The notes under the pieces: generated by a model | Database searches by the model: none | The model's input: the letters and a program-made list of their open reading frames with translations, nothing else | Told to the model about the DNA's origin: nothing | Position numbers and translations under genes: made by a program | Origin: Myxococcus xanthus | GTDB lineage: Bacteria; Myxococcota; Myxococcia; Myxococcales; Myxococcaceae | Reading direction: 5' to 3' | Length of the DNA: 64,000 nt | NCBI RefSeq assembly: GCF_006402735.1 | Contig: NZ_CP017174.1 | Coordinates: 7,234,001-7,298,000 of the forward strand | Shown: positions 8,663 through 12,202 of the stretch, piece by piece | How the letters are laid out: every line of letters begins with the position of its first letter | Numbering within the stretch: the first letter of the stretch is position 1

Positions 8663-8737
8663 GGGCTCCCGTATACTCCAGGCCTCGCGTTTTTCCCTGG
8701 CCAAACCCGTCGCCGCCGTGGTTGGTGGCGCCCGCCC

Positions 8738-9358
8738 ATGTCCCGTCCTCGCCTGCTCCCCGAGCCCGTCGGCCTCAAGTTCGTCACCCAGGAGACCCCG
8801 CCGGACTGGGACGCCGAATTCGGCTTCAGCGGACCGCTCGAGCTGGAAATCGGCTCCGGCGCGGGCGGCCACGCCCTGGAGTACTGCCGCCGTCACCCCG
8901 AGGTGCGCTTCGTCGCCTTCGAGTGGCGCAAGAAATACGCGCGCGACACCCAGGACCGCGCGGACAAGGCGGGCCTGCGCAACCTGCGCGTCGTCGAATC
9001 CGACGCCCGCTTCATCGTGCCCCGCATCTTCGCACCCGGCTCGCTCGCCGCCATCCACCTCCAGTTCCCCGACCCCTGGTGGAAGCGCTCCCACGCCAAG
9101 CGCGCCGTGATTCAGCCCGCGTTCGCCGAGCTGCTGTACGGCAAGCTCGCACCGGGCGGCCTCTTCGACATGCGCACCGACGTCCAGGACCGCGGCGTGA
9201 CGATGCTCGCCATCCTGGAATCCGCCGGTTTCAAGAACCCCCTGGGTTCAGGTGTTTTCCATCCCTATGACCCAGAGGAAGTGCCCTCCACGAGGGAGCG
9301 CCGCTACCTGGCCAGCGGTGAGCCCGTGTATCGGGCGCGGCTATTGAAGCCTGCCTGA
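8738..9358 (+). CDS. trmB: tRNA (guanine-46-N7)-methyltransferase TrmB
   Basis: 206 residues of a class I SAM methyltransferase. Motif I is LEIGSGAGGHALEY (about 31-44). The family signature HLQFPDPWWKRSHAKRAV is present, and TD and ERR motifs follow near the C-terminus (DMRTDVQD, STRERRY). The enzyme makes m7G46 in the variable loop of tRNAs. The ATG was chosen because homology starts there and the upstream frame runs antisense to ribF. No strong SD is seen. Confidence 0.94.
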   Translation: MSRPRLLPEPVGLKFVTQETPPDWDAEFGFSGPLELEIGSGAGGHALEYCRRHPEVRFVAFEWRKKYARDTQDRADKAGLRNLRVVESDARFIVPRIFAPGSLAAIHLQFPDPWWKRSHAKRAVIQPAFAELLYGKLAPGGLFDMRTDVQDRGVTMLAILESAGFKNPLGSGVFHPYDPEEVPSTRERRYLASGEPVYRARLLKPA

Positions 9359-9469: not shown

Positions 9470-10513
9470 ATGGCGGATGGCGAACGGAAGAGGACGCTGG
9501 AGGTCGCCCGCCGTGCCCCCCCCGCAGGGGAACTCAGTGGCCGCACGGTGCTCATCGTGGACGATGACCCGGTGCATGTCCGGCACGTGCGCGACGGCCT
9601 GGCTCCTCACGGGTACGTCTTCACCGAGGCCCATGACGGCACCCAGGCGCTGTCCGCCATCCGGGAGTCCCGCCCCGACCTCATCCTCATGGACGTGGAG
9701 ATGCCGGGATTGGGCGGCGTGGAGGTGTGCCGCATCATCAAGGCGAACGCGGGTGAGGACGGCTTCGGCTTCATCCCCGTGATTCTCATGACGGCCCGGC
9801 AGGCCGCGGGAAAGGTGGAGGGGCTGGAGTTGGGGGCGGATGACTACCTGGTGAAGCCCTTCGACATGCTCGAGCTGTCGGCCCGCGTGAAGTCCATGCT
9901 GCGGCTGAAGGCGCTGCAAGACGCGCTGGTGGAGAAGAACCGGGAGCTGGACCGCGCCAACAAGGAGCTGGCGGCGCGGCGCGAAGAGCTGCTGGCGCTC
10001 ACCCGCACGGATGCACTCACCGGCCTGTCGAACCGGCGCGCCTTGGAAGAGCGGCTGAACGACGAGTTCGCCCGCTCGCGACGTTACGGGGCGCCCCTGT
10101 CCCTGGTGATGCTGGACATCGACCACTTCAAGCGCATCAACGACAGCTTCGGGCACCCCTTCGGGGACCACGTGCTGAAGGCCGTGGCCCAGACGGCGCG
10201 GGCGCGGCTGCGGGAGGTGGACCTGCTGGCGCGTTACGGCGGCGAGGAGTTCATCGCCCTGCTCCCGGAGACAGGCCCCGCGGACGCGCTCCGGGTCTGC
10301 GAGCGGGTGCGCGACGCCATCGCTGCCCTGGAGTTGGAGCATGTGGGGGGGAGTGGCAAGCCGCAGTGCGTGCGGCTGACCGCGTCATTGGGCGTGGCCA
10401 CGGTGCCGTCGGGCGACCTCCCGAGCGCGGAGGCGCTGCTGCGGGCTGCCGACGCCAGCCTCTATGCGGCCAAGGGAGCAGGCCGCAATCGCGTCCATCA
10501 GCACGCCGCGTGA
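9470..10513 (+). CDS. Response regulator with GGDEF diguanylate cyclase output
   Basis: 347 residues: a receiver domain (about 25-142) with phospho-acceptor Asp75 (LILMDVEMPG) and the Lys of VKPFD, a coiled-coil linker (about 145-178), then a GGDEF domain (about 178-345). The active-site loop is GGEEF at 257-261, an active variant. The inhibitory I-site RxxD (Arg248-Asp251) lies exactly five residues before it. It should make c-di-GMP upon phosphorylation, with product inhibition. No partner kinase is adjacent. It lies two genes from the pilus motor genes, and c-di-GMP affects pilus motility in Myxococcus, but a direct link is inference. Confidence 0.93.
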   Translation: MADGERKRTLEVARRAPPAGELSGRTVLIVDDDPVHVRHVRDGLAPHGYVFTEAHDGTQALSAIRESRPDLILMDVEMPGLGGVEVCRIIKANAGEDGFGFIPVILMTARQAAGKVEGLELGADDYLVKPFDMLELSARVKSMLRLKALQDALVEKNRELDRANKELAARREELLALTRTDALTGLSNRRALEERLNDEFARSRRYGAPLSLVMLDIDHFKRINDSFGHPFGDHVLKAVAQTARARLREVDLLARYGGEEFIALLPETGPADALRVCERVRDAIAALELEHVGGSGKPQCVRLTASLGVATVPSGDLPSAEALLRAADASLYAAKGAGRNRVHQHAA

Positions 10514-10569: not shown

Positions 10570-10989
10570 ATGCGTCTCTCCGCGACGATGCCCTGGCTGG
10601 TAGCGCTGGTCCTGCTGCTGGGCCTGGGTGGCTGCAACCGGCCGCGCTTCGGCACCCCGCAGGACGCCTACACGTCCTTCCACCGGCTGGTGAAGCGAGG
10701 GGAGCTGCAGCAGGCGTGGGGCGCGCTGTCCAAGCCCACCCAGGACGCGCTGGCGCAGCGTGCACAGGTGGTGGGAGAAGCCTCCGGGGGTGAAGAAAAA
10801 CCGGAGCCCATGGCCCTCTTCTTCGCGAATGTCCCTCCGCCTCCGGATGTTACGGAGGTCTCACTGGTCCGGGAGGAGGGAGACGTCGCGACAGTGCTCG
10901 TGCGCGCGGGAGAAAGCTCCCACGAGGTCCGGATGGTCCGTGAGCCGTCCGGGTGGAAGGTCGACCTTTCAGCATCCCTCCAGCCGTGA
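10570..10989 (+). CDS. Small lipoprotein of unknown function
   Basis: 139 residues. A hydrophobic signal ends in the lipobox LGGC with Cys22, predicting an acylated envelope protein. The mature part begins TPQDAYTSFHRLVKRGELQQAWGALS and ends in VREPSGWKVDLS. That layout resembles NTF2-like or DUF4878-type lipoproteins, where helices lead to a curved sheet ending in a W-x-hydrophobic strand. The fold guess is weak. It lies 56 bp after the GGDEF gene and 43 bp before the next gene in the same direction. Confidence 0.8.
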   Translation: MRLSATMPWLVALVLLLGLGGCNRPRFGTPQDAYTSFHRLVKRGELQQAWGALSKPTQDALAQRAQVVGEASGGEEKPEPMALFFANVPPPPDVTEVSLVREEGDVATVLVRAGESSHEVRMVREPSGWKVDLSASLQP

Positions 10990-11032: not shown

Positions 11033-12202
11033 GTGAACGACAGGAAGACACGGCGGGTGATTCCCGCGGTCGAAGTCATCCGGCGCCCGGCAACGACGCC
11101 CGGCACTGCCGCTCCGACCCCGACTCCGGCGCCCACGCCGCGCCCCACGCCTACCCCGCGCCCCACGGGCGTGGCGCCCACGCCCCGGCCTGCTGCTGGC
11201 TCGGCGCCCCTGCCGACGCCTCGTCCCGCGCCCACGGGTACCGCACCGGCGGCAGCGCCAGCGACAGCGGCCCCCACGCCCCGCCCGACGACGAGCGTGA
11301 CGCCTGGCGCTCGCCCGCTGGCTCCCCGCCCCTCGGGCCCTGGCATGGGTGCGCCTCCGGGCAGAGCCCCCGGTGGTGGGTTCGGCGGACGCCCCGGCGG
11401 CTTCCGGCCGTCCACGCCCCGGCCGCCCCCCACGCCCGAACAGATTCAGGCGCTGGCGGTGCGCGAGCGCGTCCCCGCCCGCATCGCGAAGGGCGAGCTC
11501 GAAGGGAAGATGAAGTGCCGCATCTGGCGCAAGCTGCACGCCGAGGAGGCGAAGCGCTTCGACCAGGTGTACGAGCTGATGGGCCAGACGCCCAGCCTGT
11601 CCCTGGGTGACGCCTTCGGCGTGCTCCAGAGCGGCATGACGGTGGCCGAGTTCATGGCCCGCAAGGAGCGCACCCAGCGCAAGGCGGCCATCAAGCAGGC
11701 GCGCGGCGAGGTCGAAAACGCCGTGGTGGCGGACTTCCTGGCCCGGCTCATCAGCGACAAGGCAGAAGTCTCCGTGGTGCTGGCGGAGCGCTCCCTGTTG
11801 GACACGCTGCAGGTCGAGGAGCCCATCGCCTTCACGCTGGAGCGCACGGGCCGCCTGGAGAAGCTCCAGGTGGTGCTGCTGGCCCGGCGCACGGATTGGG
11901 AGCGGCTGCTGCCCGGTCTGGAGCGCGATGCCAAGCTGACGCAGAAGCCGTCCGCGGTGGCGCGTCAGCCGGACAAGCGCCCCCACTCGGACCCGCGCGC
12001 CTTCCTGGACCACATCGGGCAGACGGTGCGGATGGTGCTGCGCAACGGCATCACCCTCCAGCTTCCGCTGATTCGCGTGGGCCGGTTCGACCTGCTGCTG
12101 GGCGAGGAGGGCCACGAAGTCTTCGTCCCGCTCCACGCCCTGCTGCGCTTCGAGCCTGTCGCCTCCACCTCCGACGAGAGCGCCCCCACGGACGAGGCCT
12201 GA
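11033..12202 (+). CDS. Proline-rich protein with a C-terminal Hfq/Sm-like domain
   Basis: 389 residues from a GTG. Residues 20-135 are a Pro/Thr/Ala-rich disordered tail with PTPRP repeats and a Gly-Arg patch (RAPGGGFGGRPGG). Residues 137-300 look helical and charged (MKCRIWRKLHAEEAKRFDQV). Residues 319-375 read SDPRAFLDHIGQTVRMVL, RNGITLQL, RFDLLLG and EVFVPLHALLRF, which line up by eye with the Hfq elements QDPFLNAL, NGIKLQG, FDQFVILL and MVYKHAIS, including the NGI turn and the His-Ala of the Sm2 motif. I infer an RNA-binding Sm-type domain fused to a disordered tail. Without a profile search this stays a hypothesis; the gene itself is secure. No canonical hfq is in the window. Confidence 0.72.
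   Translation: MNDRKTRRVIPAVEVIRRPATTPGTAAPTPTPAPTPRPTPTPRPTGVAPTPRPAAGSAPLPTPRPAPTGTAPAAAPATAAPTPRPTTSVTPGARPLAPRPSGPGMGAPPGRAPGGGFGGRPGGFRPSTPRPPPTPEQIQALAVRERVPARIAKGELEGKMKCRIWRKLHAEEAKRFDQVYELMGQTPSLSLGDAFGVLQSGMTVAEFMARKERTQRKAAIKQARGEVENAVVADFLARLISDKAEVSVVLAERSLLDTLQVEEPIAFTLERTGRLEKLQVVLLARRTDWERLLPGLERDAKLTQKPSAVARQPDKRPHSDPRAFLDHIGQTVRMVLRNGITLQLPLIRVGRFDLLLGEEGHEVFVPLHALLRFEPVASTSDESAPTDEA

Follow-up and report, generated by a model that had tools for sequence, protein, structure and literature searches.

A divergent Sm-superfamily protein with tandem Hfq-fold barrels as a candidate RNA-acting factor in the Cystobacterineae

A gene in the 64,000-nucleotide stretch of the Myxococcus xanthus genome analyzed here (the window) encodes what we consider, on balance, to be a divergent member of the Sm superfamily that acts on RNA in the Cystobacterineae and that joins two tandem Hfq-fold barrels to a basic arm and a helical domain (Table 1). 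Hfq is the protein that aids small regulatory RNAs (sRNAs) in finding their targets. The tandem-barrel protein, for which no published description was found in the open-access literature, offers a specific, clade-wide candidate for a missing Hfq-like RNA helper, which ordinary annotation has overlooked.

Table 1. Features of the tandem-barrel gene and its conserved neighbors, in window coordinates
Feature	Position	Strand	Basis
Complete gene for the 389-aa tandem Hfq-fold protein, starting with GTG	11033..12202	+	ORF reading and homologs
Short motif conserved at the N terminus, MNDRKTRRVIPAVEVIRRP; pattern across the family, V[EQ][VI][IVL]R[RK]	11033..11089	+	Homolog reading
Pro/Thr/Ala/Arg-rich arm, presumably disordered	11090..11431	+	Composition
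Basic domain of five helices, with the highly conserved stretch VPxRIAKGELEGKMKCRIWxKLH	11432..11710	+	AlphaFold2 and alignment
First Hfq-fold barrel, residues 229-288, sequence-diverged	11717..11896	+	AlphaFold2, structural superposition
Conserved basic linker joining the barrels, QKPxxVARQPxxRP	11897..11989	+	Alignment
Second Hfq-fold barrel, residues 320-375	11990..12157	+	Profile searches, AlphaFold2, structural superposition
Short acidic C-terminal tip, net charge -4	12158..12199	+	Composition
Lipoprotein-like gene, conserved neighbor 43 bp upstream of the tandem-barrel gene	10570..10989	+	Weak DUF4878
GGDEF-domain response regulator, the usual neighbor on the upstream side	9470..10513	+	Locus comparison
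trmB (tRNA guanine-N7 methyltransferase), conserved upstream neighbor	8717..9358, start approximate	+	Named from sequence

Long spurious reading frames are abundant in a genome as GC-rich as this one, and the likeness to Hfq might on that account have arisen by chance in a noncoding or unimportant ORF. This explanation, to which we give practically no credence, is refuted by a strong third-position bias, by 50% identity across the suborder, and by the preservation of gene order. The differences between pairs of homologs, counted by codon position (e.g., 19/5/49 and 45/25/85), are heaviest at the third position when read on the plus strand, which identifies this as the coding strand and excludes the long antisense ORF, and the retention of the N-terminal motif among homologs backs the GTG start. 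The order trmB, GGDEF response regulator (where present), lipoprotein gene, and tandem-barrel gene is largely preserved down to 50% protein identity; together with the third-position bias, this points to a real gene with vertical inheritance as far as it can be followed.

The fold was predicted with AlphaFold2 from residues 134 to 389 (the “core,” numbered from 134) as a single chain with 30 homologs. The resulting model (mean pLDDT of 87.8, about 94 in the barrels) comprises five helices, a helix followed by five strands (core 97-152), a linker, and again a helix followed by five strands (core 189-242); the Sm fold, with its N-terminal helix and five-stranded barrel, is seen in both blocks of the predicted structure. 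On superposition with VIA-align 2, core 96-153 (barrel 1) fits Escherichia coli Hfq (3rer_F) with a Z score of 10.0 and an rmsd of 1.3 Å over 58 residues, and core 187-242 (barrel 2) fits Methanocaldococcus jannaschii Hfq (5dy9_A) with a Z score of 7.5 and an rmsd of 2.2 Å over 55 residues. A Foldseek search of the PDB with the core model returned Hfq chains in nearly all rows at a probability of 1.00, with a best E value of 3.7e-3 and hence no match at 1e-3 or better. Judged from the predicted structure, both barrels are very probably Sm-like. The initial annotation, made from the sequence, had recognized a single Sm-like domain; it was right for residues ~320-375 but missed the other barrel at residues ~229-288. 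This region had been counted into a helical middle domain, a description that holds for residues ~134-226 only, and the disordered Pro/RG-rich “tail” of the same account lies instead at the N terminus (residues 1-133).

At the level of sequence, the order of Hfq-like elements that the annotation had read in residues 319-375 (DPFL, NGI-LQ, F--LL, and His-Ala) is real: the series DPxxFL, RNGI, GxFD-LLG, and PLHA is nearly invariant in 30 divergent homologs. Taken as a single sequence, the protein yields no significant match, although both of its best hits are to Hfq: Listeria Hfq heads the PDB matches (E value of 0.47), and the sole NCBIfam match is to an Hfq model (E value of 0.22). A profile of the 30-homolog family, searched against PDB sequences, retrieved exclusively Hfq or Hfq-like proteins in its 10 matches (best E value of 0.0017, to the M. 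jannaschii protein), and the profile of barrel 2 alone, searched against 177,635 PDB sequences, retrieved Hfq in 11 of 12 matches (best E value of 0.0007). Alignment of barrel 2 by hhalign with a profile of 14 Hfqs from diverse bacteria, either annotated or found by tblastn, gave an E value of 1.5e-5 and a probability of 79% in the expected register, with the NG turn and the HA positions aligned. Conversely, an Hfq HMM scored family members at up to 10.7 bits, against a maximum of 6.0 bits for 3,000 shuffled sequences. When the full protein and family members were scanned against Pfam and NCBIfam, no curated family, Hfq (PF17209/TIGR02383) included, passed its cutoff; the best E values of the homologs against the curated Hfq models were 0.02 to 0.2. 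Barrel 1 shows no significant sequence similarity to Hfq (hhalign E value of 0.014), and the Hfq HMM gives weak in-register matches at core 98-116 in several members.

These results support a profile-level relationship of barrel 2 to Hfq, as a divergent Hfq-like Sm domain; both the profile matches and, in the predicted structure, the five-stranded barrel expected of such a domain were found. For barrel 1, we infer a shared origin with Hfq. The lack of a significant sequence match for barrel 1, and the Z score of 7.0 that a designed small barrel also attained in the structural comparison, would suit the notion that these are generic small β-barrels that converged on the Sm shape with no common ancestry with Hfq. 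We consider such convergence quite improbable, as the profile matches of barrel 2 were specific to Hfq in the entire PDB sequence set, its NG turn and HA positions align with those of Hfq, and the Z score of barrel 1 exceeds those of the non-Sm rows.

Among 195 Myxococcota genomes sampled, the tandem-barrel family is found in 93 of the 96 genomes of its own family, almost always as a single full-length copy, and in none of the other families. In one of the three genomes lacking a match, a contig stops just past the upstream neighbor, at the expected start of the gene; the assemblies of the other two are merely 79 to 85% complete. Many draft contigs break within or just ahead of the GC-rich segment encoding the Pro/Arg-rich arm, so that the start of the gene or the whole gene is hidden (e.g., L111 and loci L001 to L003). 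Separate profiles and a mixed profile of Hfq and the family detected no credible relative in the other Myxococcota families, where the corresponding locus contains trmB, joined in two cases by the lipoprotein gene, with no recognizable tandem-barrel gene. In public genomes, 44 loci encode related proteins, and these genomes carry myxobacterial names except for one Comamonas record and one metagenome-assembled genome labeled Proteobacteria. The former, titled Comamonas sp. KCTC 72670, harbors a copy with 93% identity (L004:6001-6762) amid the same neighbors at up to 97% identity, and is probably a mislabeled or contaminated myxobacterial genome. Two genomes of a single genus additionally encode a diverged paralog (L105:3402-4634 and L106:3589-4854), in which both barrels follow an unrelated N-terminal region without a Pfam match (in L105); hence, the tandem behaves as a unit. 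Decayed fragments of the paralog in four further genomes (L107 to L110) suggest that it was gained and lost repeatedly.

The contacts by which Hfq binds RNA are well established: the proximal uridine pocket is formed by Q8, F42, and Y55-K56-H57, the distal face features Y25, and the positive charge is carried on the rim, by the RRER arginines. In the tandem-barrel family, the equivalents of E. coli Hfq D9, N28, G29, F42 (F/Y), H57, and A58 are retained in all or nearly all of the 30 homologs, those of F/Y42 and H57 being present in every one. In the protein of the window, these two positions are taken by F352 and H368, corresponding to core F219 and H235. Q8, Y55, and K56 are replaced by S/N/G/A, P, and L/F, respectively, across the same homologs; the position of Y25 is occupied by V/Q/F/T/L/E; and the loop between helix and strand lacks the arginine patch of the rim. 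This partial retention of RNA-contact residues indicates that the protein is not a canonical Hfq. The net charge of the barrels is neutral to slightly acidic, whereas the segments around them are basic: residues 1-133 have a composition that includes 39 prolines and a net charge of +15; the helical domain has a median net charge of +7 among homologs; and the linker, with core R178, Q179, P180, and R183 invariant, has a net charge of +3. This distribution argues that any RNA binding would use the arm, the helical domain, and the partial proximal pocket.

The N-terminal arm differs widely in length between homologs. Near its start, a V[EQ]VIR[RK]P motif recurs in 25 of 26 sequences (24 of 25 homologs plus that of the window), including those of termite-gut lineages, and looks like a docking peptide for some partner. 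The helical domain obtained no worthwhile match in the PDB sequence search and no credible match in the fold comparison; when modeled separately, it gave a weak model (pLDDT of 68.6). The C-terminal tip is longer and more acidic in Corallococcus. As E. coli Hfq is autoregulated by its acidic C-terminal tip (PMC5606850), the tip seen here may be a comparable element.

With these features in view, one could envisage a tandem Sm-fold scaffold or assembly factor engaged in protein-protein contacts (e.g., in RNA processing or translation), which has lost sRNA chaperoning and touches RNA through its basic arms alone or not at all. The loss of K56, Q8, Y25, and the rim arginines, the absence of positive charge on the barrels, the conserved linear motif suggestive of a protein partner, and the paralogs with a different N-terminal domain would all fit such a role, which we nevertheless regard as unlikely given the basic character of helical domain, linker, and arm alike and the universal conservation of the F42 and H57 equivalents. 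The tandem-barrel protein is instead likely to bind RNA.

A canonical Hfq was found in none of the 195 Myxococcota genomes, in line with what the initial annotation had stated for M. xanthus; the same search was positive in 5 of 14 control genomes, and a genome-wide search of the genome under study was negative. ProQ, considered as another possible chaperone, is likewise absent from this genome. Studies of the M. xanthus developmental sRNA Pxr report that an hfq homolog is missing from myxobacteria and suggest that a different protein may chaperone this sRNA (PMC5684412, PMC5568312). Pxr is reported to have originated at the base of the Cystobacterineae, the suborder in which the tandem-barrel gene occurs, an overlap that is suggestive only. 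Other Myxococcota families lack both Hfq and the tandem-barrel gene, so a replacement of Hfq function is not required.

Taking these findings together, we propose a model in which two tandem Hfq-fold barrels follow a flexible Pro/Arg-rich arm of positive charge and a helical domain that is likewise basic. Each chain would contribute two barrels to a side-by-side assembly. A six-barrel ring could then consist of three chains, an arrangement also suggested for the two-Sm Hfq of Zymomonas, and the protein may form such a three-chain pseudohexamer. Barrel 2 would offer a partial uridine-type pocket through the F42 and H57 equivalents, and the helical domain, linker, and arm would supply the positive charge borne by the rim in canonical Hfq. 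The protein would bind and stabilize sRNAs and/or mRNAs in a suborder without canonical Hfq. It is conceivable, though we advance this with some reserve, that it is a functional stand-in for Hfq with chaperone activity of its own. A more specific, equally tentative version is that it serves the Cystobacterineae as their general sRNA chaperone, replacing Hfq, stabilizing Pxr and other sRNAs, and helping to gate fruiting-body development; as part of the same speculative picture, the charge needed would come from the N-terminal arm and helical domain rather than from the barrel rim. If borne out, the architecture would illustrate how an Sm protein can evolve by internal tandem barrels, losing the usual RNA contacts and gaining basic disordered and helical parts.

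Several parallels are offered by known systems. With ProQ/FinO, the protein would share a possible role as an RNA chaperone, but no relation in either sequence or fold was found. With Hfq, including archaeal MJ1435 (PDB codes 2qtx, 4x9c, and 5dy9) and the versions from Bacillus subtilis and Listeria, it shares the helix and five-stranded barrel with a DP...FL start, the NG turn that joins strands 1 and 2 (as LRNG, like MJ1435), the F42 and H57 equivalents and, in some genera, an acidic C-terminal tip. Unlike Hfq, it spans 389 amino acids with two barrels per chain, a helical domain, and a long N-terminal arm, lacks K56, Q8, Y25, and the rim arginines, and is missed by the curated Hfq models. 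A precedent in architecture is the two-Sm Hfq of Sphingomonadales, such as Zymomonas ZMO0347, for which a three-chain ring was suggested (PMC2877685). Like NF010691, an Hfq model of 176 positions with only a weak match to the tandem-barrel protein (positions 115-164), it exemplifies a chain that is enlarged or carries more than one Hfq-type barrel. Those proteins are recognizable as Hfq by sequence, whereas here barrel 1 is unrecognizable and extra domains have been added. Tandem Hfqs are already known from Sphingomonadales (PMC2877685), and what is new in the present case is the divergence, the additional domains, and the occurrence in a clade reported to be without Hfq.
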